Source: an uncultured Trueperaceae bacterium
GTDB taxonomy: Bacteria; Deinococcota; Deinococci; Deinococcales; Trueperaceae
Direction of reading: 5' to 3'
Assembly: GCA_937873495.1 (NCBI GenBank)
Contig: CALMXZ010000010.1
Coordinates: 124,001-188,000 of the forward strand
Length of the DNA: 64,000 nucleotides
The notes beneath the pieces are model-generated. The model did no database searches, was not told the DNA's origin, and was given only the letters and a program-made list of their open reading frames with translations. The translations under genes and the position numbers were made by a program. Positions 18,946-32,381 of this stretch are shown here, piece by piece. Position 1 is the first letter of the stretch. Every line of letters starts with the position of its first letter.

Positions 18946-19665
18946 TCACAGCGACAGATACGCCGCCCTCACCCCGGGATCCCCGAGCAGCTCCCGCCCG
19001 CTGCCCTCCTTGACGACCTCGCCGTTCTCCAGCACGTAGGCGCGGTCCGCGATGCTCAAGGACTGCTGCACGTTCTGCTCGACGAGCACGACGGTGACGC
19101 CGTCCGCGTTGATCTGCCTCAGGGCGCGGAAGACCGTCAGCGACAGCGCCGGCGAGAGGCCGAGCGACGGTTCGTCGACGAGCAGTAGGCGCGGGTCGCT
19201 CATCAACGCTCTGCCGATGGCGAGCATCTGTCGTTCGCCGCCGGAGAGCGTGCCGGCGAGCTGCGCGCCGCGCTCGGCCAGGCGCGGGAAGAGGTCGAAG
19301 ACGAGCTTGCGGTTGCGCGCCGCGTTCGGCTTGGCGCGGCTCAGGTACTCCGCGCCGCTCTCGAGGTTCTCGCGCACGGTCATGAGGGGGAAGAGCTGAC
19401 GCCCTTCCGGCACGTGCCCGATGCCGGAGCGGACGATGCGCGCCGCGCTCGAGCCGAGGAGCGACGTGGCGCCGAAGGCGCTCATGCTGCCCGCTCGAGC
19501 CTGCACGAGGCCGCTGATAGTGCGCAGCAGCGTCGTCTTGCCCGCGCCGTTGGCGCCGATGATGGTGACGAGCTCGCCCTCGTCCACGTGCAGGTCGACG
19601 TCCCAGAGGACCGTGATCTTGCCGTAACCGGCCCGCAGGCCGCTGATCTCGAGCGCCCGTCCCAT
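18946..19665 (-). CDS. livF: Branched-chain-amino-acid-type ABC ATPase (LivF)
   Basis: A 239-residue ATPase with Walker A GANGAGKTT (about 38-46), HVPEGRQLFPLMTV, signature LSGGERQMLAIGRAL, Walker B LLLVDEPSLGLSP and switch His region VTVVLVEQN. The GRQLFP element is typical of LivF. It is the last gene of the TetR-KAS III-ligase-transporter operon and begins right after livG. It couples ATP hydrolysis to transport through the LivHM permease. The actual substrate need not be an amino acid. Confidence 0.93.
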   Translation of the reverse strand: MGRALEISGLRAGYGKITVLWDVDLHVDEGELVTIIGANGAGKTTLLRTISGLVQARAGSMSAFGATSLLGSSAARIVRSGIGHVPEGRQLFPLMTVRENLESGAEYLSRAKPNAARNRKLVFDLFPRLAERGAQLAGTLSGGERQMLAIGRALMSDPRLLLVDEPSLGLSPALSLTVFRALRQINADGVTVVLVEQNVQQSLSIADRAYVLENGEVVKEGSGRELLGDPGVRAAYLSL

Positions 19666-20544
19666 CTAGGCGTCCTTTCCAGGCGTGTCGCCCGTGTCGC
19701 CGCCGGGCGCGTCGTGGACCGACGGCACCTCGGCCGACGGCACCTCGGCCGACGGCACCTCGGTCGATGACACGTCCGCCGACGTCACGCCGGCTCGCTC
19801 CGCACCGTCCCGGGAGCCGTCGTCCTCGACGCCGAGGTACGCCTCCACGACGCGTGGGTCGCTCGTCACCTCGGCGTACGTGCCGCGCGCCAGCTCGGAG
19901 CCGTGGTCCATGACCAGCACCCTGTCGGCGAGGTCGCGCACGACGGGCATGACGTGCTCGATGAAGACCACCGTTATCCCCTCGTCCCGCACGCCGCGGA
20001 CGAGCTCCACGGCTTGGCGCGCCTCCCCCGGACGCAAGCCGGCCATCACTTCGTCCAGCAGGAGGACCTTCGGCTGGGTGGCGAGCGCCCGCGCTATCTC
20101 GAGGCGCTTCTCCTGGAGGAGGTTGAGGTCCTCGACCGGCTGGTCGCGCAGGCGGTCCAGGCCGGTGCGCTCGAGCGCCCGGTCCGCGCGGCGGCGCGCC
20201 TCTACGCTGCTGACGCCCTCGGAGCCGAACTGTGCGCCGACCAGGACGTTCTCGGCCACCGTCATCTCGGGGAACGGCTGGACGACCTGGAAGGCGCGCC
20301 CCAACCCCAGGCGGCAGCGTCGGTAAGTCGGCATGGCCGTGATGTCCGTGCCGAGGAGCTCGAGTCTCCCGGACGTCGGCGTGAGGAGGCCGGAGACCAG
20401 GTTGAGGAGCGTCGTCTTGCCCGCGCCGTTGGGACCGATGATCGCGAAGATCTCGCCGGGTGCCGCCTCGAACGACACGTCCTTCACCGCGACCAGTCCC
20501 CCGAACGACTTGCTCAAGCCGGTGGCGCGCAACACGGTGCTCAT
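19666..20544 (-). CDS. livG: Branched-chain-amino-acid-type ABC ATPase (LivG)
   Basis: A 292-residue ATPase with Walker A GPNGAGKTT (about 38-46), FQVVQPFPEMTV, Walker B VLLLDEVMAGL and VVFIEHVM. The signature region reads LNLLQEKRLEIARAL rather than canonical LSGGQ, the usual LivG-type divergence (LLEQRRLEIARAL-like). After about residue 250 comes a non-family tail of ~40 residues with repeated SAEVP/STEVP pentapeptides and a GDTGDTPG end. ATG at 20544 overlaps the livM stop as ATGA. Confidence 0.92.
   Translation of the reverse strand: MSTVLRATGLSKSFGGLVAVKDVSFEAAPGEIFAIIGPNGAGKTTLLNLVSGLLTPTSGRLELLGTDITAMPTYRRCRLGLGRAFQVVQPFPEMTVAENVLVGAQFGSEGVSSVEARRRADRALERTGLDRLRDQPVEDLNLLQEKRLEIARALATQPKVLLLDEVMAGLRPGEARQAVELVRGVRDEGITVVFIEHVMPVVRDLADRVLVMDHGSELARGTYAEVTSDPRVVEAYLGVEDDGSRDGAERAGVTSADVSSTEVPSAEVPSAEVPSVHDAPGGDTGDTPGKDA
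19721..19795 (-). repeat. Five 15-bp units in the livG tail
   Basis: Units start at 19721, 19736, 19751, 19766 and 19781. The first two are identical, the third differs by one base, and the last two are diverged. Each codes for a pentapeptide (SAEVP, STEVP and similar), making a disordered C-terminal tail. Confidence 0.85.
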
Positions 20545-21566
20545 GCGCGCTCCCCGGTCGTGCCCGATGCGCTCGCTCCGCCGCGCTTGAACAGCTTGGA
20601 CCCAAGGCCGACGAGCCCGCGCGGCATGAAGAGGATGGACGCTACCAGGACGATGCCGTAGCCGATGAGGTACCCCTCGGAGAAGGTGCGCTTGAGGGTC
20701 TCCTCGATGCCGGCGAGGACGGTGGCCCCGAGGATGGGGCCGAGGGTCGTGTACAGGCCGCCGAAGATGGGCGTCACGAGGGCGAGGACGGTCGTGTGGA
20801 CCGAGAAGGCGCCGTCCGGGCTCACGCTGCCCAAACGGTGCGCCTCGACGGCGCCGAGCAGCCCGGCGACGAAGCTCGAGAGCACGAAGGCGAGGAGCTT
20901 CATGCGCGCCGGGTTCACGCCCATCACGCCGGCCACCTGCTCGTTCGTACGCACGGCCGTGAAGGCCGCCCGCAGGCGCGAGCGTTGGATCACGACGGAG
21001 ATGACGACGGCCACGACCAGCAGGCCGGCGTAGACCCAGAAGTACCCCTGGTTGCGTAAGAACGCGACCTCCCAGCGCTCCATGCTGCCCGCGACGAACG
21101 TGGGCCGGAAGAGGGCGGGCACGTTGATGCCGGCCGCCCCGCCCGCCACGGCCGTCGGCAGGCGCTGCACGGCGGCCTTGAGGACCTCCGTGAACGCGAG
21201 GGTCGCGATGGCGAAGTAGATACCGAAGAGCCGGAGCGTCACCGAGCCGAGGCCGAGCGCAAGCACGGCGGCGGCGAGGCCGCCCAAGGGGATGCCGAGC
21301 CAGAGCGGCGCACCGGTGAGCTTGAAGAGGACCGCCACCGTGTACGCCCCGGCGCCCGTGAAGGCGGCGTGGGCGAGCGAGAGTTGGCCCGTGCGCGCGA
21401 GCATGTCCCACGACAGTGCCAGGACGGCGAGGACGAGCGCGTTCGTGGCGAGCGACAGGTAGCTGACGGAGGCCCGGCCGAAGACCTCGCGAAGCACGGC
21501 GGGCAGGAACACGAGGAGGACGGCGAGGGCCGCCGTGACGACCAGGTCGCGAGTAAGGCCCCTCAC
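20541..21566 (-). CDS. livM: Branched-chain-amino-acid-type ABC permease (LivM)
   Basis: A 341-residue membrane protein with about nine helices and the LivM hallmark segments GQLSLAHAAFTGAGAY, GIYFAIATLAF and GGLYTTLGPILGA. The likely start is GTG at 21566: it overlaps the livH stop as GTGA and has GGAGG 5 nt upstream. A GTG at 21587 in the same frame is an alternative. It pairs with LivH to form the translocation path. Confidence 0.92.
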   Translation of the reverse strand: MRGLTRDLVVTAALAVLLVFLPAVLREVFGRASVSYLSLATNALVLAVLALSWDMLARTGQLSLAHAAFTGAGAYTVAVLFKLTGAPLWLGIPLGGLAAAVLALGLGSVTLRLFGIYFAIATLAFTEVLKAAVQRLPTAVAGGAAGINVPALFRPTFVAGSMERWEVAFLRNQGYFWVYAGLLVVAVVISVVIQRSRLRAAFTAVRTNEQVAGVMGVNPARMKLLAFVLSSFVAGLLGAVEAHRLGSVSPDGAFSVHTTVLALVTPIFGGLYTTLGPILGATVLAGIEETLKRTFSEGYLIGYGIVLVASILFMPRGLVGLGSKLFKRGGASASGTTGERA

Positions 21567-22429
21567 GCGACCCTCCGCGAGCGCCACACGAGCACGACGA
21601 AGATGATCGCGAAGAAGACCATGTTGCGCAGCGCGTCGCCGTTGGGCACGAGCGTCGCGACGAGCGACTCGGCCAGGGCGACGGTGAGCGCCGCCCCCAA
21701 GATGCCCCGGATGTTGCCCAGCCCGGCGAGGACGACGATGGCGAACGCCTTGAGCGTGAACCCGAGCCCGACCGTGGGGGTGGGCGACTGTATGACGCCG
21801 ATCATCACCCCGCCGAGTCCGGCCAGGAGCGCGGAGAGGGCGAAGGCGACGAGGTACACGCGGTCGACCTCGAGCCCCACGAGGCCAGCCCCGATGCGGT
21901 TCTGCGCGACGGCCCGCATGGCGCGTCCCAACGGCGTCGAGGCGAGCATCCAGTAGAGGCCGGCCACGAGCACGAGCGAGATTACGAAGCTCCCGAGCGG
22001 CACGGCGCCGATGCTCACGCCGCCGACCTGGAAGCCCAACGAGCGGTAGGGCACGTTCGCGATGGTGCGGGGGTCGCCGCCCCAGATCAGGAGGGCCAGG
22101 TTCTGCAAGATGATGCCTATGCCGAAGGTCAGGAGCATCTGGTTGAGCTCGGGCGCCCGCAGCACGAAGCGAATGGAAGATAGGTAGATGAGCGCGCCGA
22201 TCACGGCGAGGGCCGGCGCCACGAAGAGAAGCGACAGCAGCGGGTCGAACCCGAAGCCGACGAACAGCTGATAGGCGAGGAACGCGCCCACCATGAAGAA
22301 CTCGCCGTGCGCGAAGTTGACGATCCCGATGACGCCGATGGCGAGCGCCAGCCCTACGGACACGAGCGCGTAGAGCCCGGAGGCGAGCACGCCGGACACG
22401 ATGGCTTGGGGCAGGAGAGACAGGTCCAT
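21563..22429 (-). CDS. livH: Branched-chain-amino-acid-type ABC permease (LivH)
   Basis: A 288-residue permease with about eight helices. The family signatures NFAHGEFFMVGAFLAYQLF and GLGNIRGILGAALTVALAES are both present. It follows the binding-protein gene after a strong 18-bp hairpin and overlaps livM by 4 bp. With LivM, LivG, LivF and the binding protein it completes a HAAT-type importer. Confidence 0.93.
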   Translation of the reverse strand: MDLSLLPQAIVSGVLASGLYALVSVGLALAIGVIGIVNFAHGEFFMVGAFLAYQLFVGFGFDPLLSLLFVAPALAVIGALIYLSSIRFVLRAPELNQMLLTFGIGIILQNLALLIWGGDPRTIANVPYRSLGFQVGGVSIGAVPLGSFVISLVLVAGLYWMLASTPLGRAMRAVAQNRIGAGLVGLEVDRVYLVAFALSALLAGLGGVMIGVIQSPTPTVGLGFTLKAFAIVVLAGLGNIRGILGAALTVALAESLVATLVPNGDALRNMVFFAIIFVVLVWRSRRVA

Positions 22430-22497: not shown

Positions 22498-23688
22498 TTA
22501 CCGGCAGCTAGCCAGCGGCGCCGTGGCGCGCGCGAGCGGCCAGACGATCTCGCGGACGCCGTCCTGGAACTGGAAGACGTTCCACATCTCGGAGCCGAAG
22601 CCTTGGTGCAGGGCGATGACGGACGGCTTGAAGCTCCACTCGCCCATCGGCGACCGGAAGGTGCCGTTCTGCAGGGCCGCGATCACCGCGTCCTGGTCGG
22701 TGGTGCCGGCGGCGTTGATGGCGTCGGCGTAGCTCCAGAGCTGGGCGTACGCGAGCGCGGCCATGTAGTTGTCGGGCGCCTTGCCGTGCATGGCGACGTA
22801 GGCGTCGAGGAAGGTCTTCGCCTCGGCGTTCGGGAGGTTGGGCAGGTAGCCGATCAGGCCGGTCACGCACTGCGCCTCGGGGGCCGCGTCGAACTCGCTC
22901 GGCCATCCCGGAGGGGCGCCGAAGATGTACTGCGGGTCGTACTTGAGCTCGCGGATCTGGCTCGTGAGGGGCACGACGTCGGAGTCGTAGCCGATCCAGA
23001 AGAGGGCGTCGGCGCCGGACGCGGCCGCCTTGGCGATGGTCGCGCGGAAGTCGCCGGTGCCGCCCGTGAGGGTCGACTTGAAGGCCTCTACGAGCGGGAC
23101 GCTCATGCCGGCGTCCTGGAGCAGGCCGGCCGCGGCGATGGCGCCAGGACCACCGAACGCGGAGTCCTCATGCAGCAGGGCGACGCTCTTCACGCCCGTG
23201 CTGGCCATGAAGGCCGTGCTCGCCTCGGTGTTCTGGTAGTCCCACGGGTGCACGTGGAAGAACCAGGGCTCCGCGCCCAGGAGCTCCTCGATGCCGTCGA
23301 AGCCGTCGATGCCGACGCCCGAGACGGCGCCACCGATCCACGACACGACGGGCTGGAAGGTGCGGAACGACTCGACGAGGGCGAGGGTCACGCCGGACGA
23401 GTAGCCGCCCGCGATGAACTCGACGCCGTCCTCGGTCATGAGCTTCTCGAAGGCGGCGACGCCGGTGGCGGCGTCGGCCTTCGTGTCCTCGATGACGATC
23501 TCGAGGGGCTGGCCGAGCACGCCGCCGGCGGCGTTGATCTCGGCGAGGGCGAGCTCGAAGCCGGCCTTCTGCGCCTGGCCGGTGCCGGCCGCGCCGCCCG
23601 TGAGTGGCGAGAGCACGCCGATGGTCACGCCTTGCGCCATGGCGACGGCGAAGAGCGCGACTACGAGGGTTGCGATGATGCGCTTCAT
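22498..23688 (-). CDS. Branched-chain-amino-acid-type ABC substrate-binding protein
   Basis: A 396-residue type I periplasmic binding protein with signal peptide (MKRIIATLVVALFAVAM, cleavage near AQG), then VTIGVLSPLTGGAAGTGQ, EINAAGGVLGQPLEIVIEDT and GGYSSGVTLALVESF. Two late cysteines (APEAQCVTG and the C-terminal SCR) might form a disulfide. GGAGG 5 nt before the ATG fixes the start. Neighbouring acyl-CoA ligase and KAS III genes suggest a carboxylic acid as ligand rather than Leu/Ile/Val; this is inferred from position. Confidence 0.9.
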   Translation of the reverse strand: MKRIIATLVVALFAVAMAQGVTIGVLSPLTGGAAGTGQAQKAGFELALAEINAAGGVLGQPLEIVIEDTKADAATGVAAFEKLMTEDGVEFIAGGYSSGVTLALVESFRTFQPVVSWIGGAVSGVGIDGFDGIEELLGAEPWFFHVHPWDYQNTEASTAFMASTGVKSVALLHEDSAFGGPGAIAAAGLLQDAGMSVPLVEAFKSTLTGGTGDFRATIAKAAASGADALFWIGYDSDVVPLTSQIRELKYDPQYIFGAPPGWPSEFDAAPEAQCVTGLIGYLPNLPNAEAKTFLDAYVAMHGKAPDNYMAALAYAQLWSYADAINAAGTTDQDAVIAALQNGTFRSPMGEWSFKPSVIALHQGFGSEMWNVFQFQDGVREIVWPLARATAPLASCR

Positions 23689-23825
23689 TCTTCCTCCTTC
23701 GTTGCTCCGGGTCTTTCCCGGTGTCGAACGGGTCTGGGTTGCGGCTGGGTACGCCGGTGGTGGTCGGCTCGGGTCTTCCGAGCGGTCTCGGGTTCGGTCT
23801 CGGGTCGGGCGCCCTCGGGGCTCAT
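23685..23825 (-). CDS. Possible 46-aa ORF coupled at both ends
   Basis: The frame starts with an ATG overlapping the ligase-hydrolase stop (ATGA) and stops on a TGA overlapping the binding-protein start (ATGA). The product is highly charged (RKTRADHHRRT, ending TKEEE) with no recognisable fold, and the DNA is a run of imperfect GGTCTCGGGT-like repeats. Its end also contains the ribosome site of the next gene. It could be a leader peptide that couples translation or simply an accidental open frame. Confidence 0.25.
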   Translation of the reverse strand: MSPEGARPETEPETARKTRADHHRRTQPQPRPVRHRERPGATKEEE

Positions 23826-26317
23826 GTCATGCGTTCCCCCTTCGAGAAGGTCTTGGCGAGCAGTTCGCGGAAGGCGGCCGCGGCCTCGAGCGGCGGCGAG
23901 TGGCCGACCCCCTGCCAGGTGACGAGGGAAGCGTTCGGGTAGGCGGCGGCCGTGGCCGCGGCGGCCGCGGCGCCTATCAGCAGGTCGAGGCTGCCGTGCA
24001 GGACGGTGACGGGCACTTGCACGGCCGCCGTACGGCCCGACAGGTCGTAGGCGGCGAGGGCGCGGGCGTTGCCTTCGTAATGCTGCTCGCCCATGGCGAG
24101 CGCGTCGTCCACCAGGTCGCTCATGTTCTCCGGCACCCGCGTGGGCATGATGGCCGCGAGGGCGGCGGCGAGGAAGGCCCGGTCGAGCCGGTAGGCCCTG
24201 AGGGCCGGGTAGTGCTCGTCCGGGGTGACGTAGCCGGCGGGCGGCGCAGAGTCGACGAGGAGCAGCCGCGCGACGAGCCCCGGGTGGCGCGTGGCGAGCG
24301 TCTGCGCGACCGCGCCGCCGAGGCTGTGCCCCACTACGCCGGCGCGCACCACGCCCAGCCCGCGCAAGAACGCGGCCAGCGAGTCCGCCCAGGCGTCCAC
24401 CCACTCCGCGACGGGCCACTCCTCGGGGAAGTCGTCGGAGTGCGCGAAGCCGGGGAGGTCGGGCGCGATGAGGTCGAGGCCCGGCGGGGGGTCGGCGAGG
24501 AGCTCCCGCCACCACCTGTGGCTGGCGAAGTTCCCGTGGATCAGGAGGACGGGGGTGCCGGCGCCGGCCCTGGCGAAGCCGATCGTCAGGTCGGCGACCT
24601 CGCCGCGGCGCGTCGGCCGTGCCACCGCTACCATGAGCGAACGGGGCGCCTGCTGCCTGGCGGCCGCGCCGCTCTCCCCGCGCGCCGCGCGCTCGAAGCG
24701 TTGCCCCAGCTCCCGCTTGAGGATCTTGCCGGCGCCGCTCTTGGGCAGGTCGGTGGCGATCTCGATGTGCTTCGGCACCTTGTAGCGCGCCATGCGCGTA
24801 CGCAGGTGCTCGCGCAGCTCGTCGCCCGTGGCGGCGGCACCGGGCTTGAGGACGACGACGGCCAGGCCGACCTCGCCCCAGCGCTCGTCTGGCACACCGA
24901 GGACGGCGCACTCAGCGACGGCCGCGTGATCGTAGAGGGCTCTCTCCACCTCGACGGGGAACACGTTCTCGCCGCCCGAGATGAACATCTCCTTGCGCCT
25001 GCCCGCTATGGAGAAGAAGCCGTCTTCGTCGGTGGTGGCGAGGTCGCCCGTCCATAGCCAGCCGTCCTTCAGGACCTCGGCGGTGGCCGCCGGCCGCTCG
25101 AAGTAGCCGGAGAACACGTGCGGGCCGCGCAGCGTCAGCTCGCCGACCTCGCCCGGCGCGCACGGGCTCCCGTCGGCGCGACGGACGACGGCCTCCGCAT
25201 GCAGGAGCGGCTTGCCGACGGACTCCGGCCGCTTGGCCGCCTCGGACGGCTCGATGGCGAAGCAGTTCACGCCCGCCTCCGTCAGCCCGTACCCCTGCCT
25301 GAAGCTGATGCCCCGCGCCGCGAACGCGTGGCGCACGGGCTCCGGGCACGCGGCCCCGCCCGAGATAGCCCAGCGGACCCGGCTCAGGTCGCGCGCGCCG
25401 AAGCTCGGGTCGGCGGCGAGCATGCCGTACATGGTCGGGACGAGGAAGAGGATGGTGGCGCCGAGCTCCTCGACGAGCCGCAGGTACTCGGCCGGTTCGA
25501 ACCGGCTCTGCATGATGGTGCGGCCGCCCAGGTGGAAGAGGGGCGTGAGGAAGACGTTGACGGCGGCGTGGTAGCAGGGCGTGGCCTGCACGACGCAGTC
25601 CCCGTCGGTCAGGCCCCACGAGAACACGGTGTTGACGGCGTTGTAGCAGACCTGGCGGTACGGCAGCATGGCCCCCTTGGGCAGGCCCGTCGTGCCGCCG
25701 GTGAGGAGGATCATCTGCGGGTCCTCGGGGCCGAGGTCTGGCGCCGGCGCGGCGTGGAGAGCGGCGGCGTCGAGCGCGTCGGCCCCCTGGGCCCCTGCTC
25801 CGCCTGCCGATGCGTTCCCGGCCGACACCGCGCGCTCGAAGGCGGCGAGGTCGAGGAGGGCCGCCGCTGCCACGTCGCGCGTGGTCGTGGACGCCGCCTC
25901 CACCGCGTGGTTCGCGCGCGCCGTCCCGGCGGCCGCGGCTCTTCCCGTATCGGACGCCGCCGCGGCCCCTTCGGCCGTCGCGCCGGCCAAGCCCGCATGC
26001 TCCGCGTCGTGCAGCACGACGCTCGGGCGCAGGTACTCTCCGAGGCCGCGCAGCTCCGCCTCGGAGAGGCGCACGTTGAGGGGGGTGTACACGAAGCCGA
26101 GCTTGGCGGTCGCCAGGATCAGGTCGACGTGCGCGATGTGGTTATGCGCCGCGATCGTCACCCGGTCGCCCTTGCCGACGCCCATGCTCGCCAGGAGGGC
26201 CGCCGCGCGCTGCGCGCGCTCGTTCAGCTCGGCGTAGGTGTGCCAACGGCCCTCCCACCAGAGGGCGTCGCGCTCCGGCGTGAGGTCGGCGCGGCGGGCG
26301 GCGACGTCGAGGATCAC
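23822..26317 (-). CDS. Acyl-CoA ligase fused to alpha/beta hydrolase
   Basis: An unbroken 831-residue frame. Residues 1-540 are an AMP-forming acyl-CoA synthetase: TGGTTGLPKG near 206, QGYGLTEAG, WTGDLATTDEDG, GRRKEMFISGGENVFP and the catalytic Lys motif KSGAGKILK near 526. An Ala-rich insert (about 112-195) splits the N-terminal domain. After a short linker, residues ~565-831 are an alpha/beta hydrolase with LIHGNFASH, nucleophile S665 in GHSLGG, an Asp in LHGSLDLLIG and a His in GVGHSPP. GTG at 26317 overlaps the KAS III stop as GTGA. The pairing suggests activation of an acid and hydrolysis of a related ester, lactone or thioester. Confidence 0.88.
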   Translation of the reverse strand: MILDVAARRADLTPERDALWWEGRWHTYAELNERAQRAAALLASMGVGKGDRVTIAAHNHIAHVDLILATAKLGFVYTPLNVRLSEAELRGLGEYLRPSVVLHDAEHAGLAGATAEGAAAASDTGRAAAAGTARANHAVEAASTTTRDVAAAALLDLAAFERAVSAGNASAGGAGAQGADALDAAALHAAPAPDLGPEDPQMILLTGGTTGLPKGAMLPYRQVCYNAVNTVFSWGLTDGDCVVQATPCYHAAVNVFLTPLFHLGGRTIMQSRFEPAEYLRLVEELGATILFLVPTMYGMLAADPSFGARDLSRVRWAISGGAACPEPVRHAFAARGISFRQGYGLTEAGVNCFAIEPSEAAKRPESVGKPLLHAEAVVRRADGSPCAPGEVGELTLRGPHVFSGYFERPAATAEVLKDGWLWTGDLATTDEDGFFSIAGRRKEMFISGGENVFPVEVERALYDHAAVAECAVLGVPDERWGEVGLAVVVLKPGAAATGDELREHLRTRMARYKVPKHIEIATDLPKSGAGKILKRELGQRFERAARGESGAAARQQAPRSLMVAVARPTRRGEVADLTIGFARAGAGTPVLLIHGNFASHRWWRELLADPPPGLDLIAPDLPGFAHSDDFPEEWPVAEWVDAWADSLAAFLRGLGVVRAGVVGHSLGGAVAQTLATRHPGLVARLLLVDSAPPAGYVTPDEHYPALRAYRLDRAFLAAALAAIMPTRVPENMSDLVDDALAMGEQHYEGNARALAAYDLSGRTAAVQVPVTVLHGSLDLLIGAAAAAATAAAYPNASLVTWQGVGHSPPLEAAAAFRELLAKTFSKGERMT

Positions 26318-27318
26318 GGCTCCCCCCAGCGGAGCGCGATGGCGTTCCACACGTAGCCGACGCCGGCGGCGACCGCGACGGCGAGGTCGCCCGGGCGCAG
26401 CCGGCCCTGGTCGCGCGCGAGCTCGAGGGAGAGGAGCTGGTCCACCTGCCCGAGATGGCCGTAGTCGCTCAGGTAGACGCTCTGCTCGTCGCTCAACCCC
26501 AAGCGCTGGAGGAGGTAGTCATGTGCGCTGCGCTTGACGTGCAGCATGGCGAGGTACGCGATGTCCGAGGCGGTCGCGCCGCTGCGCGCCACGGCCTCCT
26601 CGACTACGCGCACGAAGTTCTCCAGGCTGACGGGCTCGAGGCGCGTCTTCATGCCGGCCGGGTCGGTGACGCGCAGGCGGTAGTCGGCGAGGTTCTCGCG
26701 CGTCAGGGGCGCCTTCGTGCCGCCGACCGGCACGAGGACGTCGAGCGAGAAGCTGCCGTCCGTCACGATGCTCGAGCCGAGCAGCTCGTGGCCGGCGTCC
26801 CGTTGCACCACCGCGGCCCCGGCCCCGGCGCCCAGGTTGTACATGAAGCGCACGTCGGGGTCCTCGAGGTCGATGAGGTCGGAGTTCCGGTAGCCCCCGG
26901 CCACCAGCACGACGTTCACGCTCTCGTCGGCCTTGAGGAGGTCGCGCGCCTGCTTGAGGCCGAGGACGGCCGTGCCGCACTTCTGCCCGATGTCGTAGGC
27001 GTAGGCGTTGCGCGCCCCGACGTCGTAGGCGAGCTTGATGCCGGCCGTCCAGACCGGGTACTCCTTGTGCTCCTCCGTGATCGAGACGACGACGTCCACG
27101 TCCTCCGGCTGCACGTTCGCGTCGGCCAGCGCACGCTCGGCCGCCCATACCCCCATCGCCGTCGGGTGGTCGTCGGGGCCGGGCAGGACGCGCTGAGCGA
27201 TGCCGAGCTTGTCCCTCACCACCCATTCGGGGAGCCCGCTGGCGGCGGCGAGCTCGGCCGCCGAGAGCCTGCCGACTGGAACGTACGTTCCGAGGCCGGT
27301 GACCCCTGGGCGGCTCAT
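26314..27318 (-). CDS. KAS III-like thiolase-fold enzyme, atypical active site
   Basis: The 334-residue thiolase-fold protein follows FabH layout, with active-site Cys C114 in GQKCGTAVLG and closing segment VAVAAGVGYVWNAI. The second and third triad regions differ from FabH: the HQAN-like segment reads LHVKRSAHDYLL and the GNTSAAS-like segment reads YGHLGQVDQ, with His where Asn is usual. It probably does not start fatty-acid synthesis. It may condense or transfer acyl groups on CoA in the pathway served by the adjacent ligase, but its substrate is unknown. It sits 57 bp after tetR and overlaps the ligase by 4 bp. Confidence 0.82.
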   Translation of the reverse strand: MSRPGVTGLGTYVPVGRLSAAELAAASGLPEWVVRDKLGIAQRVLPGPDDHPTAMGVWAAERALADANVQPEDVDVVVSITEEHKEYPVWTAGIKLAYDVGARNAYAYDIGQKCGTAVLGLKQARDLLKADESVNVVLVAGGYRNSDLIDLEDPDVRFMYNLGAGAGAAVVQRDAGHELLGSSIVTDGSFSLDVLVPVGGTKAPLTRENLADYRLRVTDPAGMKTRLEPVSLENFVRVVEEAVARSGATASDIAYLAMLHVKRSAHDYLLQRLGLSDEQSVYLSDYGHLGQVDQLLSLELARDQGRLRPGDLAVAVAAGVGYVWNAIALRWGEP

Positions 27319-27375: not shown

Positions 27376-27984
27376 TCATGCTCCGCGCTCCCCGCCGGGC
27401 GCGATCCCATGCGCGAGCAGGTCGAAGGTGGCGTCCAGCACGTTCCGAGGCGGCCTGCTGCGCTCCCAGATGGCGTAGCGCAAGCCCAGGAAGTGCGCCA
27501 CGCCCATCAGCGCCCAGGCCTGGGCGCTGGCGTCGACGGTACGCAGCTCGCCGCGCGCCTGCGCGCGCTGCAGGTTGACCGTGTAGGAGTCGGCGAGCGT
27601 CTGGTAGTACTCGCGGTAGATGGAGTCGTCGACGAACTGCGACTCCATGACGACCTTGTACAGGTTCTGGTGCTCGAGGGCGAAGTCGATGAACGCCTCG
27701 AGGCCGAGCCTCTCGACCTCGAGGCGGTCTCTCGCCCCGGCGGTCCCCTCCGTGAGGGCGTGCCTGAGCTGGCGCCCCATGTCCTGCACGAGCTGGCGCA
27801 GGGCATCGGCCTTGGTGGGGAAGTAGAGGTAGAAGGTGCCCTGGGCCACCCCGGCCCGCCGCGTGATGTCGGAGACGGCCGTGGAGGCGAAGCCGTTCTC
27901 GCCGAACTCGGCCTCGGCCGCGGCGAGCAGCTTGCCGCGGGTCGCTTCGCCGCGTGCGGTGGTCGGGCGTGGGAGCGCGCTCAA
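27376..27984 (-). CDS. TetR-family transcriptional regulator
   Basis: The 202-residue regulator has an N-terminal TetR helix-turn-helix (about 15-60; VSDITRRAGVAQGTFYLYFP) and a C-terminal ligand domain. It starts at a TTG (27984) behind a GAAGGGAAGAG ribosome site. It is the first gene of the minus-strand operon and lies just downstream of a promoter overlapped by a perfect palindrome, so autoregulation and control of the whole operon are likely. TetR proteins beside acyl-CoA ligases commonly sense acyl-CoAs; that ligand class is inferred. Confidence 0.92.
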   Translation of the reverse strand: MSALPRPTTARGEATRGKLLAAAEAEFGENGFASTAVSDITRRAGVAQGTFYLYFPTKADALRQLVQDMGRQLRHALTEGTAGARDRLEVERLGLEAFIDFALEHQNLYKVVMESQFVDDSIYREYYQTLADSYTVNLQRAQARGELRTVDASAQAWALMGVAHFLGLRYAIWERSRPPRNVLDATFDLLAHGIAPGGERGA

Positions 27985-28042: not shown

Positions 28043-28073
28043 CAATATGACTACTGACTCAGTAGTCATATTG
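28043..28073. promoter_or_regulatory. 31-bp perfect palindrome, TetR operator
   Basis: Arms of 15 bp (28043-28057 and 28059-28073) are perfectly complementary around one central base. The core reads TGACTACTGA then its complement. The outer bases CAATAT form the -10 box of the tetR promoter, so occupancy would exclude RNA polymerase. It lies 59 bp before the tetR start. Confidence 0.8.
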
Positions 28074-28097
28074 CGGTGGTAACCGACCGGCTGTCAA
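28068..28097 (-). promoter_or_regulatory. Promoter of the tetR-KAS III-ligase-liv operon
   Basis: On the minus strand TTGACA (28097-28092) is followed by an 18-nt spacer and CAATAT (28073-28068). The -10 hexamer is the first six bases of the palindrome. Confidence 0.65.
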
Positions 28098-28181: not shown

Positions 28182-31061
28182 TCAGCTCGTAGCGGGCAGC
28201 TTGAGGTGCACCGCGCGCCTGCCGGCCAACCCGAGGAGCAGCCGGGCCGTCTCCGGGTGACATGTCAGGTAGAGGAGCTGATGCCGCTCGGCCAGTTTGG
28301 CGAGGACGCCCGCCAAGCGCTCCGCGCGCTCGGGGTCGGCGTTGACCAGGACCTCGTCGAGGACCAGAGGCAGCGCTACGTTGCCGGCCGAGAACGACTC
28401 GACGAGACCGAACCGGATGGCGAGGTAGAGCTGCTCCTGCGTGCCGCGGCTCAGCAGGCCGACGTCGAACGGTTCGTCGGCGCTGGTGAACGCGCGCAGC
28501 GCGCTGTCCTCGGCGAGGTGGACGCGCACGTAGCGTCCACCCGTCACGTCGGCGAGGTGGTGACCCGTCCTGCGCAGCACCTCGGGCACCTTCTCCCGTT
28601 CGTAGGCGGCCTTCGTGGAGGCGATGAGGTCCTTGGCGAGTCGAGCGACGAGCCACCGGCGGGCCTCGGAGCGCGCCTCGTTGGCCAGAGCGTCCATGGT
28701 GGCCAGGTAGCCGGCCAGGTCCGCCGAGCGCCCGAGGTCGCTCAAGGTCTGCTTCAGCGCGCCGGTCCTGCGCGTGAGGTCGTCGACCTGCCCGCCCAGG
28801 TGGCCGGAGCTAGCCCGGCTCTGGGCCAGGGCATGCTCCCAAGCCCGCGGGTCGCGTTCATCGAGCACCGCCGCCGCCTCGGCCGCCCGGACGCCGAAGA
28901 GGGCCTCGAGCTTCTGCTGCCCGGTTCGGATCACGTCCACCAGGCGCTCGCGCCGCTCGGCCAAGCCCCGCTCCAGCGCCTCGGCCCTCTCCACGGACTG
29001 CAGCCACTCGCTCACCGCCACGGTGGGGCCGAGGCCGTCGAAGGGGCGCTCCAGCTCGCGCGCCAGCGCGTTCGTGCGGTCCTCGAACGTCCTGGCGGAC
29101 GCGCGGGCCTCCTTGAGCCTCACGGTCACGGCCGTGAGCCTCGCCACCCTGACCTGCAGGTCGGCGATCCTCGCGAGCAGCTCCGGCATGGTCTCGGGCG
29201 TAGCCCCGCTGGGCGCGCCGACGGACCGGCACCAGGCGTCCCACTCGGCCGCGCCGGCGCTCCTGGCCGCGGCCAGGGCCGCGAGCCGCGCCTCCCCCTG
29301 GGTAACGGCCCTGCGCCGGTGGGCGAGCTCGGCGCCGGCGCCGGCCTGCGCTTCCAGGACGGCCGCGCCCTCCTCCAGGAAGGTGAGCCGGTCCTCCACT
29401 TCCCTGGCGGCGGCGCGGGCTTCCGGCGCGCCGGCGCCCTCGGCGAGCCCGAGGCGGGCGCGTGCCTCGCCGAGGGCGGCCTCGGAGCGCCCGAGGTCGA
29501 GGCTCGCCTCTGCGGCGTTCGCGCGCAGCTCCGCCAGAGCGGAGTCGGCCGCCGTCCTGCCGCGCAGGGGCCAGAGCAGGAACCCGAGCGCGACGCCTAT
29601 GGCCGCCGCGGCGCCGGCGACGGTCCTGCGCGTCTGCCATTCGACGAACGCCATGCCCGCGGCGCCGAGGACGGCCAGCGTCCACGCCGACCAGCGGACG
29701 GCGAGCGCGCCCCGATCGCGTTCGCCCGCCGCCTGCAGCTTCGCGAGCAGGTCCGCGTGGCGCGAGCGCGCGGCGCTCAGCTCGTCGAAGCGGTCGAGCA
29801 GCGTCGCCACGCCGAGCCGGCGCTCGCGCGCCCTTGCTAGGAGGGTCTCCAACGCTCTGCGGGGGTCGACGCTCGGACCTTGGGTGGGCCGGCCCGCCTT
29901 GGTCGCCCACGTCTCCACGCGCGCGGACGCGAACGCTAGGTCGCGCTCGGCGGCGCTCAGCTCGTGCCTCGCCGTATCCAGCGCGCCTTCGGACTGGTTG
30001 AGCGCGGTCGTGGCCGCGGCGGCGGCGGCCCTGGCAGCCTCGGCGTGCGCCTTCCAGGCTCCGGCCTCCGTGAAGGCCGCCAGGCGCGGTGGTCCCCATT
30101 GGGGCCCCAAACTGCGCAGTCCGTTCAGGCTCGTCTCGACGAGGCCGCGCTGTTCGGCTTCCAGCTCCATGACGTCCACTTTGGCGCGGCGGTAGGCGCC
30201 CAGGTCCGCGTGCAAGGACCGGATCGCGCCCGCGCTGCGCAGCCAGACGCTGGGGGGCGTGCCCCCCGCCCCGGGCGCGTTCAGGGCGCCCTCCTCGAGC
30301 TCCAACTGCCCAAGGTCGTCGAGCGCGCCGGCGCGCCCGCTCCAGTCCGGCCAGAGCTGCAGCAGCTTCTCGTGCCAGGCCGCGCTGTCGGCGGCCTCCC
30401 GCTGGTCCGAGCGTAGGGCTTCTGCCTCCGCGGCGATCGCGGCCAGCTCGGCGGTAAGTTGCTCGTAGCGCCTCGCTTCCGAGGCCGCCTGCGCCGCGCC
30501 CCTGCGCGCCTCGGCGAGGTCGCGCGCGAGGTCGCCGAGGACCGACTGGGCGCGCGGTTTGAGAAGCTTGTCTGTCACCGCCTCCAGCTTGGTCGTCGCC
30601 GCGCTCGCGCTGCGGCCCGCGCCCGCCACCGCGGCGGAGTAGAGCCGCTCCCTGACGGCGTCGTCTGTCAGCGCGTCGAACGCCTGCAACTCCGTCAACC
30701 CGAACGCGAAGACGTTGCGGTAGACGTTGCCGTCGAGGTTGCCCACGATGGCCGCCAGCCGCGCGCCGTCCAGCTGCGCGCCCGTCCGGGCGTCCACGAG
30801 CTTCGTGGTCGAGCGGCCGCCGTTGCGCTCCAGCCGGTACCTGTTCTCGCCATCGTGAAGCGTGATGCTCCCCTTGAGGTGCTCGCCCTGGCCGCGCGAC
30901 TCCGGGAAGACGAGCGCCCTGACGAACGCCAGGAGCGTGCTCTTGCCCGCCTCGTTCGGACCCTCCAGGACGACGAGCCCAGGGGTGGCGGTCGGGGCGA
31001 GGTCGAACTCGACCCCACTCAGACCGCGGAACTCGTGCACCTCCACCCTGCCGAGGTGCAT
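28182..31061 (-). CDS. YhaN-like SMC/Rad50-type ATPase with membrane segments
   Basis: The 959-residue protein has an N-terminal ATPase half with Walker A GPNEAGKST (about 36-44) and a long coiled coil. The C-terminal half has signature LSRGTQEQLYLAIR and Walker B LPLVLDEVLVNAD. In the middle of the coiled coil, about 452-500, are two hydrophobic helices (WSAWTLAVLGAAGMAF and AGAAAAIGVALGFLLW), so the protein is probably membrane-tethered, as in YhaN relatives. ATG at 31061 lies 3 bp after the nuclease-like gene, giving an SbcCD/Rad50-Mre11-like pair. A DNA end-processing or repair role is inferred. Confidence 0.87.
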   Translation of the reverse strand: MHLGRVEVHEFRGLSGVEFDLAPTATPGLVVLEGPNEAGKSTLLAFVRALVFPESRGQGEHLKGSITLHDGENRYRLERNGGRSTTKLVDARTGAQLDGARLAAIVGNLDGNVYRNVFAFGLTELQAFDALTDDAVRERLYSAAVAGAGRSASAATTKLEAVTDKLLKPRAQSVLGDLARDLAEARRGAAQAASEARRYEQLTAELAAIAAEAEALRSDQREAADSAAWHEKLLQLWPDWSGRAGALDDLGQLELEEGALNAPGAGGTPPSVWLRSAGAIRSLHADLGAYRRAKVDVMELEAEQRGLVETSLNGLRSLGPQWGPPRLAAFTEAGAWKAHAEAARAAAAAATTALNQSEGALDTARHELSAAERDLAFASARVETWATKAGRPTQGPSVDPRRALETLLARARERRLGVATLLDRFDELSAARSRHADLLAKLQAAGERDRGALAVRWSAWTLAVLGAAGMAFVEWQTRRTVAGAAAAIGVALGFLLWPLRGRTAADSALAELRANAAEASLDLGRSEAALGEARARLGLAEGAGAPEARAAAREVEDRLTFLEEGAAVLEAQAGAGAELAHRRRAVTQGEARLAALAAARSAGAAEWDAWCRSVGAPSGATPETMPELLARIADLQVRVARLTAVTVRLKEARASARTFEDRTNALARELERPFDGLGPTVAVSEWLQSVERAEALERGLAERRERLVDVIRTGQQKLEALFGVRAAEAAAVLDERDPRAWEHALAQSRASSGHLGGQVDDLTRRTGALKQTLSDLGRSADLAGYLATMDALANEARSEARRWLVARLAKDLIASTKAAYEREKVPEVLRRTGHHLADVTGGRYVRVHLAEDSALRAFTSADEPFDVGLLSRGTQEQLYLAIRFGLVESFSAGNVALPLVLDEVLVNADPERAERLAGVLAKLAERHQLLYLTCHPETARLLLGLAGRRAVHLKLPATS

Positions 31062-31064
31062 GCC

Positions 31065-32381
31065 CTAGACCCCGCTTTCCGGTGGGGCGTCGAGCAGGTC
31101 GTAAGCGAGGGTCTCCGCTTCCGCCCAGATGTCGGCCGCCTCGGTCGATAGCCGCTCCAGGTCGAGCTCCTGCCTGACGGCCTGGAGGCTCCTGTTCCCG
31201 AGGAGCTCCTCCACCAGCCGGGCGACCGCCTCCGGCGCGTCGTGAGCGCGCTCGGCGCTCGAGCGCAGGACGTCCGCCACGAAGTCGCCTGCCCGCATGC
31301 GCGCTTCCCGATCTAGCGGCGGGCGCGTCGTTATCCTGACCTCGTCCCACCACACGCCCGCCGGGGCCACGTCCTGCAGGTACGCCAGGAGGCCGGCCTC
31401 GCCGGCGTTGCGCAGGCCGGCGTGGGCAGGGCCGACGCCATGCACCCGCACCCTGAGGACGACTTGCTGCGCGCCTTGGCTCGCCGCGGCGCTCCCATGG
31501 TCGGTGCCGCCGGCCGACCCGCCGCCGCGTGCCCGGAGCGCTGCCTGGACGAGGTGCGAGCGGACGGCCTCGAGATCAGCGAGACCCGTGCCTATGTCGA
31601 CCGTCAGCGTCTCGAAGCTAACGATGCCGACGGAGACGAAACGCGCCGTCGGTTCGCGGTCCTCGACCTCGACGAGGTAGAGGCCTTTCGCCCCCGCCTC
31701 GCCTGGGTCGCGCGCCTGCAAGTTGCCCGGGTAGATGGCCAGCGGCCGCTCCGGGCTCACGACCGTGCGAGCGTGCACGTGACCGAGGGCCCAGTAGTCG
31801 AGGCCGGAGTCGCGCAAGTCGGCGAGCGTGGCGGGGGCGTAGTTGCCGTGCCCGCCCAGGCCGCCGACGTTGGCATGCAACAGGCCGATCTGGAAGCCCG
31901 GGAAGTCGGGGTCGCGCGCGTAGCGGGCAGCCAGGTTCTCCGTGACGCTCGAGCCAGCATGGGAGATGCCGTGCACGAGGGCGACCGGCTCGCCGCCGCG
32001 CAGCGCGCGCACCCTGGCGACGTCGTCGTGCCCGAACACGGTCACGCGTTCCGGCCAGTCGGCGACCGCGGTCCACCGGCCTCCGCGTGGGTCGTGGTTC
32101 CCGTGCACGACGAAGCTGGCCACGCCCGCCTCCGAGAGGCGCAGCAGTCCGTCGCGGAAACGCAGCTGCGCCCTCACTCCCACCGAGTCGCCGTCGTAGA
32201 CGTCGCCCGCCAGCAGGACGAAGTCGACGCCGGCGTCCAGGCAGAGCTCGACTGCGCGGTCCCAGGCGTCGAGCGACGCGTCGCGCAAGGCCCTCGCCAG
32301 CTCCGGCGCACGCGAACGCACTCCCGAGAAGGGGGTGTCAAGGTGCAGGTCGGCCAGGTGGGCGAAGCTGAAGGTCGTCAC
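31065..32381 (-). CDS. YhaO/SbcD-like metallophosphoesterase nuclease
   Basis: The calcineurin-like phosphoesterase motifs appear in order: HLADLHLD near residue 7, AGDVYDGD, VHGNHDPRG, LLHANVGG and LGHVHART, followed by YPGNLQARD. These supply the two-metal site of Mre11/SbcD nucleases. The C-terminal half (about 270-438) is less conserved and carries an Ala/Gly run. Start is GTG at 32381. It is encoded just before the YhaN-like ATPase, and the two very likely form a complex acting on DNA ends. Confidence 0.9.
   Translation of the reverse strand: MTTFSFAHLADLHLDTPFSGVRSRAPELARALRDASLDAWDRAVELCLDAGVDFVLLAGDVYDGDSVGVRAQLRFRDGLLRLSEAGVASFVVHGNHDPRGGRWTAVADWPERVTVFGHDDVARVRALRGGEPVALVHGISHAGSSVTENLAARYARDPDFPGFQIGLLHANVGGLGGHGNYAPATLADLRDSGLDYWALGHVHARTVVSPERPLAIYPGNLQARDPGEAGAKGLYLVEVEDREPTARFVSVGIVSFETLTVDIGTGLADLEAVRSHLVQAALRARGGGSAGGTDHGSAAASQGAQQVVLRVRVHGVGPAHAGLRNAGEAGLLAYLQDVAPAGVWWDEVRITTRPPLDREARMRAGDFVADVLRSSAERAHDAPEAVARLVEELLGNRSLQAVRQELDLERLSTEAADIWAEAETLAYDLLDAPPESGV

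Follow-up and report, generated by a model that had tools for sequence, protein, structure and literature searches.

The window analysed here, i.e., 64,000 nucleotides of contig C10 of an uncultured Trueperaceae genome (G000), carries a genuine fusion of an AMP-forming acyl-CoA ligase and an alpha/beta hydrolase, which is recent and functional-looking. The conserved operon around it (TetR regulator, KAS III-like enzyme, ligase, hydrolase(s), and LIV-type ABC importer) is the more novel part; fusion of neighbouring pathway genes is a known kind of event. As a whole, the explanation given here, to which we assign about even chances, is that the fusion derives from overlapping genes inside a small operon for acid uptake and activation, with hydrolysis preceding activation. 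The features of the locus are as follows.

18946..19665, minus strand: LIV-type ABC ATPase 2 (PF00005)
19666..20544, minus strand: LIV-type ABC ATPase 1, recognised from its translation; start inferred from MSTVLRATGLSK, position kept in relatives
20541..21587, minus strand: LIV-type permease 2 (PF02653)
21563..22429, minus strand: LIV-type permease 1 (PF02653)
22498..23688, minus strand: LIV/HAAT-type periplasmic substrate-binding protein (PF13458, 212 bits)
23822..26317, minus strand: fusion frame, AMP-forming acyl-CoA ligase, linker, and alpha/beta hydrolase, 831 aa; frame present in G000, G004, and G003
23825..24578, minus strand: hydrolase part, residues 580–831, with Ser665, Asp778, and His806 (triad invariant, AlphaFold model)
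24579..24674, minus strand: linker/junction, residues 548–579, where the GTGA overlap of stop and start used to lie
24675..26317, minus strand: ligase part, residues 1–547 (PF00501, PF13193)
25739..25969, minus strand: Ala-rich insert within the ligase, residues 117–193, of variable length (shorter in G003)
26314..27318, minus strand: KAS III-like enzyme of family PRK06840 (NF005308), with Cys114, His260, and His288
27376..27984, minus strand: TetR-family regulator (PF00440, E = 3.3e-14)
28048..28068, unstranded: candidate operator, a 21-bp near-perfect palindrome TGACTACTGA(G/C)TCAGTAGTCA, 64 bp upstream of the TetR gene
28092..28097, minus strand: TTGACA, tentatively a possible -35 hexamer, lying 23 bp ahead of the palindrome

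The fusion frame comprises 831 uninterrupted codons on the minus strand, with a GTG start at 26317 that overlaps the stop of the KAS gene and a stop ending at 23822; an alternative start upstream at 26350 is less likely, and the starts of relatives match position 26317. The first-pass annotation had claimed that this one frame encodes both a ligase and a Ser hydrolase, which was borne out by exact coordinates, Pfam domains, and catalytic residues. Pfam matches were AMP-binding at residues 8–406 (258 bits) and AMP-binding_C at 456–531 (82 bits), followed in the C-terminal part by Abhydrolase_1 (589–719) / Abhydrolase_6 (590–818); the same search found no carrier-protein domain in the fusion. 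The ligase half has the makeup of the ANL superfamily, i.e., PF00501 and PF13193 over their cut-offs, a P-loop (TGGTTGLPKG at 206–215), and the catalytic Lys531 within PKSGAGKILK, which is invariant in 14 aligned sequences. Its closest solved relatives are the fatty-acyl/feruloyl-CoA synthetase entries 8weu/8wev (E = 3e-103), and it reached none of the curated cut-offs shown (best 407 versus 476). The hydrolase half is of the Ser-type alpha/beta class, with the triad in the right order, a complete fold, the nucleophile in a GHSLGG motif, and Ser665, Asp778, and His806 invariant in 15 homologues. In the model of the full-length fusion, pLDDT fell below 50 at residues 119–149 and 168–182 of the Ala-rich insert and from residue 547 into the linker, which is among the least conserved stretches of the protein. 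The hydrolase half of this model was poor (mean pLDDT 69.7), because only two alignment rows covered it, and the relative placement of the domains is unreadable; an AlphaFold model of the hydrolase by itself reached a mean pLDDT of 90.5 and gave 1830 PDB matches at E <= 0.001.

The fusion frame was also present, single and intact, in two further genomes of the genus, namely G004 (98% identical; L021/L002) and G003 (91% identical; L022/L003/L040), the latter being the public MAG KLAP159 (L040). Positions 24550–24720, which had been flagged for a missed frameshift, are in frame and stop-free in both of these genomes as well. Indels among the three fused genomes were confined to the Ala-rich insert and were multiples of three, so that the frame is kept. 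In comparison with G003, dN/dS was 0.13–0.14 for the ligase core, 0.32–0.39 for the hydrolase, and 0.30–0.46 for the junction (based on small numbers), i.e., below 1 in both halves, with the hydrolase less constrained than the ligase. Long spurious frames are common in the high-GC DNA of this region, and an open frame alone is little evidence; it is the homology on both sides, the frame common to three species, and the dN/dS below 1 that make the fusion more than chance. The fusion is real and not a sequencing error. An assembly or sequencing artefact that joined two genes, as the two separate genes of most relatives might invite one to suppose, is extremely improbable given that three assemblies agree, with an identical frame in three separate genomes and dN/dS below 1.

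Among 111 Deinococcota genomes, the fusion was detected in three, which represent three species of one genus of Trueperaceae, and only these matches run unbroken across the junction. It was not found beyond them in the 111 Deinococcota genomes, 80 KAS loci, and 72,556 plasmids searched, and no place in the plasmids covered 80% of the query. In G005, which represents a fourth species of this genus, the ligase ends with ...GAC GCG TGA and the hydrolase starts at an overlapping GTG, so that the two genes share a 4-base GTGA overlap in different frames. Separate ligase and hydrolase neighbours overlap by 4–20 nt in 29/31 locus rows (including G005, and with a few rows being repeats of one genome) and are in the same frame in 0/31. 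Alignment of the junction DNA yielded a net difference of one base between fused and unfused loci, with a divergence too great to name the base. The fusion was likely made by a net one-base frame change at the ligase/hydrolase overlap, judging from these alignments. This region is labile within the genus, as no hydrolase adjoins the ligase in G001 and another one, H1, does so in G002. Separation of the two halves in relatives, which the first-pass annotation had set against its own reading, was nearly universal: apart from the three species of one genus with the fusion, almost every relative encodes them as two overlapping genes. The fusion is therefore a local variant of the operon and does not define a route.

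The operon itself is far more widespread than the fusion. In Trueperaceae, the order is TetR – KAS III-like – ligase – (H1) – HYD2 – substrate-binding protein – two permeases – two ATPases, HYD2 being the hydrolase that is fused in the window; in Thermaceae, it is KAS – ligase – H1 – (HYD2) – MaoC – importer, often with an SDR after it. Bacillaceae carry importer – KAS – hydrolase – FabG-like SDR – ligase, in some cases with TetR – ligase – MaoC – second KAS ahead of it, and Alkaliphilus carries two hydrolases (PhaZ-like and H1-like) before the KAS, with a CoA transferase where the ligase would stand. In the Gammaproteobacteria Salinisphaera and Ectothiorhodospiraceae, the core TetR – KAS – ligase was found, with importer and hydrolase not nearby. 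The association of the KAS III-like partner, TetR, and transporter with the fusion was thus rightly noticed in the first-pass annotation, being conserved in Trueperaceae and Thermaceae and rearranged in Bacillota; the transporter, described there as carboxylate-type, proves to be a LIV/HAAT-type ABC importer (PF13458, PF02653, PF00005), whose substrate-binding protein has distant solved relatives only. Among the 71 KAS loci that span 12 kb or more, 68 contain an activating enzyme (ligase or CoA transferase), 52 an SDR, 59 the ABC genes, and 63 an alpha/beta hydrolase on the same strand, counts that carry no background rate and come mostly from Bacillaceae, i.e., from loci that are not independent. 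A stronger argument than these counts is that the module recurs, with its genes in differing orders, in phyla that are apart. The KAS, TetR, and transporter genes form one unit on the evidence of their neighbourhoods.

The members of the operon are not all equally fixed. A hydrolase is not strictly required, since some relatives (G001, G009, and G022) have a ligase without one adjoining it. In G009 (Trueperaceae), two operon copies were observed on contigs C6 and C108 (L025, L026), neither with a hydrolase by the ligase, which could reflect either a duplicated operon or two mixed strains. The place of the ligase is taken by a CoA transferase of the acetyl-CoA hydrolase/transferase family in Alkaliphilus and Halobacteroidaceae, which suggests, indirectly, that the ligase has an acyl-CoA-forming role that is exchanged in these Clostridia. 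Such stand-ins adjoin the KAS gene at L115:10962–12344, L114:2125–3456, and L097:11013–12305. Upstream of the operon, positions 28182–32381 of the window (minus strand) hold an AAA/coiled-coil ATPase and a metallophosphoesterase, a pair whose translations resemble the YhaN/YhaO or SbcC/SbcD type. A literature search, conducted largely without subscription papers, found no description of the ligase-hydrolase fusion or of the operon.

The best NCBIfam match of the TetR regulator was of the ScbR type (60 bits, under the cut-off of 150). The palindrome at 28048–28068 has 0 mismatches, with 0 expected in the window according to shuffles; it precedes the operon in 6/6 genomes of the genus and is essentially single-copy, as one weaker site with 1 mismatch (in G005) was the only other one in the six genomes and a reversed control pattern gave 0. 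Its core TGACnnnTGAnTCAnnnGTCA is kept upstream of TetR at 13–14/14 positions across Trueperaceae, and at 12–13/14 in three other loci, including two from Gammaproteobacteria (Salinisphaera and an Ectothiorhodospiraceae MAG). A scan for sigma-70 promoters gave no full consensus match. The regulator is predicted to be a dedicated local repressor that would act via this candidate operator.

The KAS III-like partner passed the NF005308 cut-off (465 versus 315 bits), and Cys114, His260, and His288 are invariant in 81/81 primary family members. Cys114 aligns with the FabH Cys and His288 falls in the FabH Asn column, while the FabH His column is offset by one and its assignment is tentative; the canonical Cys-His-Asn triad of FabH was accordingly not found, His288 standing instead of Asn. 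Because of this replacement by an invariant His, the PRK06840 family is, at the level of its predicted active site, not a plain FabH. In profile comparison, FabH (1.7e-34) was far nearer than the entries at about 1e-7, which we take to be OleA. In 10/12 second KAS copies (e.g., L060:4158–5153), Ser replaces the active-site Cys, a hint that these may be a partner subunit whose activity is changed or lost. The literature search, again largely without subscription papers, found nothing on the PRK06840/NF005308 family.

For the hydrolase, the top PDB folds were the Thermogutta esterase 4uhd and the Bacillus thuringiensis PhaZ 8ynw (TMq 0.83); the closest solved sequences and folds also take in aryl esterases and meta-cleavage product hydrolases such as CumD and DxnB2, which its fold resembles. 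The fused hydrolase scored 93 bits with i_nPHAscl (NF050089), under the cut-off of 300, and was not counted as a member; PcaD-type and PRK14875 models scored it about as high, and with 79 bits it stayed under the cut-off of 255.85 of the PcaD 3-oxoadipate enol-lactonase model TIGR02427. The companion hydrolase H1 is nearest to PcaD enol-lactonase (140 bits, under 255.85). The Bacillota counterparts score 445 and 360 bits with i_nPHAscl and pass its cut-off of 300, the depolymerase-type gene of the KAS operon having been scored directly for L053 and L115; in other Bacillota, the same assignment of the operon gene is likely from neighbours 44–90% identical to the hydrolase of L053. KAS-operon hydrolases passing the PHB depolymerase model were seen at the Bacillaceae loci L053 (11009–11917), L055, L060, and others. 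Of 18 searched Bacillota genomes that carry the module, 16 have one protein over the i_nPHAscl cut-off, and a PHA synthase match (E <1e-50) was present in just five of these 16 and missing in 11. Among 61 Deinococcota relatives, no PHA synthase was found (PF07167 in 0/61; TIGR01836 over its cut-off in 0/61), and PHB mobilisation in the host was rejected on this ground. With PHA synthase missing in the 61 Deinococcota and in 11/16 Bacillota, stored PHB is ruled out as the general substrate, and the depolymerase name would mark an esterase fold, perhaps 3-hydroxyacid chemistry, and not necessarily PHB storage. The PHB depolymerase annotation of the Bacillota hydrolases may thus hide another role.

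Taken together, the operon would be a small pathway that imports and activates a carboxylic acid, the likeliest substrate being a short 3-hydroxy acid or oxo acid, or an ester or oligomer of one. The LIV-type importer would take the substrate in, the Ser-Asp-His hydrolase would cleave an ester, oligomer, or lactone to set the acid free, and the attached ligase would use ATP to convert the acid to an acyl-CoA, on whose thioester the KAS III-like enzyme would make or break a C-C bond, presumably assisted in other lineages by the FabG-like reductase and the MaoC hydratase. Tethering would supply ligase and hydrolase activities in equal dose and may help to hand over the acid. That release comes before activation is suggested by the hydrolases in the Bacillota slot being PHB-depolymerase-type esterases. 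Of the distinct uptake–activation–cleavage route proposed in the first-pass annotation, the gene association has stood, and the order of activation and then cleavage is less well supported.

The reverse order, in which the ligase first makes a CoA ester and the hydrolase then acts as a thioesterase or a C-C/ring hydrolase, is unlikely, but it draws on the Deinococcota gene order (ligase, then hydrolase), on the fold being near CumD and DxnB2, and on H1 being nearest to an enol-lactonase; it conflicts with Bacillaceae and Alkaliphilus, where the hydrolase precedes the ligase or transferase, and with the fact that the model passed by the best-scoring members of the slot is that of an esterase. 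Type II thioesterases remove wrongly activated acyl groups for synthetases, and NRPS-like enzymes have A...TE layouts, which a ligase and an alpha/beta hydrolase in one chain bring to mind. A proofreading thioesterase that clears misactivated acyl groups is nevertheless improbable here, as the Pfam search found no carrier-protein domain in the fusion and the nearest hydrolase families are esterases and lactonases, not thioesterases.

A reading with somewhat less than even chances, and compatible with either reaction order, is that the fusion is functionally neutral, i.e., an accident of overlapping frames after which both halves work as before and without channelling. Its limitation to three close species, the poorly ordered linker, and the weaker constraint on the hydrolase than on the ligase are in its favour, whereas neutrality sits less well with a frame and catalytic residues kept across species that differ by about 9% in protein sequence.

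The fusion suggests that the steps of ligase and hydrolase follow directly on one another in the operon, and it is a clear case of overlapping genes becoming one protein, with the unfused state persisting in the genus. The wider module offers a testable role for an uncharacterised KAS III family, and it raises doubt whether the intracellular "PHB depolymerase" of Bacillota serves PHB, since most carriers tested are without PHA synthase. In its broadest form, which we put forward tentatively and regard as rather doubtful, this would be an undescribed catabolic module of Deinococcota and Bacillota, with its core in Gammaproteobacteria, in which a Cys-His-His KAS III-type enzyme works on acyl-CoAs from imported acids, the Bacillus "PHB depolymerase" is the ester hydrolase, and the Trueperaceae fusion couples hydrolysis and activation.

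Of the known systems, the Ole proteins are the most obvious comparison. The nucleophile of OleB is an Asp, and that of the fused hydrolase is Ser665 within GHSLGG. The order is likewise reversed, with the ligase at residues 1–547 and the hydrolase at 580–831 in place of OleB before OleC, and both differences had been recognised correctly in the first-pass annotation. OleBC fusion proteins, with a haloalkane-dehalogenase-like OleB, occur in Micrococcales and Granulosicoccus (PMC7064751); they share with the present fusion an alpha/beta hydrolase-fold and an AMP-forming enzyme in one chain and a thiolase-superfamily enzyme encoded alongside (PMC7064751). The OleA motif is DxxNACL (PMC7158056), whereas the KAS of the window has DIGQKCG at 109–115 (QKCG). 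The operon further differs from that of OleBC in its importer and TetR and in a FabH-like KAS. OleBC membership was rejected on order, nucleophile, OleA motif, and profile distance. A variant Ole pathway with the KAS as OleA, the ligase as OleC, and the hydrolase as OleB, giving beta-lactones or olefins, would account for the clustering of the same three superfamilies and has a precedent in the known oleBC gene fusion (PMC7064751), and is still very improbable in view of the Ser nucleophile, the reversed order, QKCG for DxxNACL, the KAS profile (FabH 1.7e-34 versus presumed OleA about 1e-7), and an importer and TetR that suggest uptake.

Closer likenesses exist for the individual parts. The KAS is a member of the PRK06840 family (NF005308) by cut-off, with the FabH Asn changed to His. 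PhaZ of Bacillus thuringiensis (8ynv, 8ynw) and NF050089 resemble the fused hydrolase in fold (TMq 0.83), HGN motif, and Ser-Asp-His triad, and Bacillota members of NF050089 adjoin the same KAS family as the fused hydrolase does; the latter differs in an identity of about 20–28%, in being fused to a ligase, and in a host phylum sample without PHA synthase. With PRK06187 / PRK06839-type acyl-CoA ligases and 8weu/8wev, the ligase half shares complete AMP-binding and C-terminal domains and the motif residues, to which the fusion adds the Ala-rich insert and the C-terminal hydrolase.
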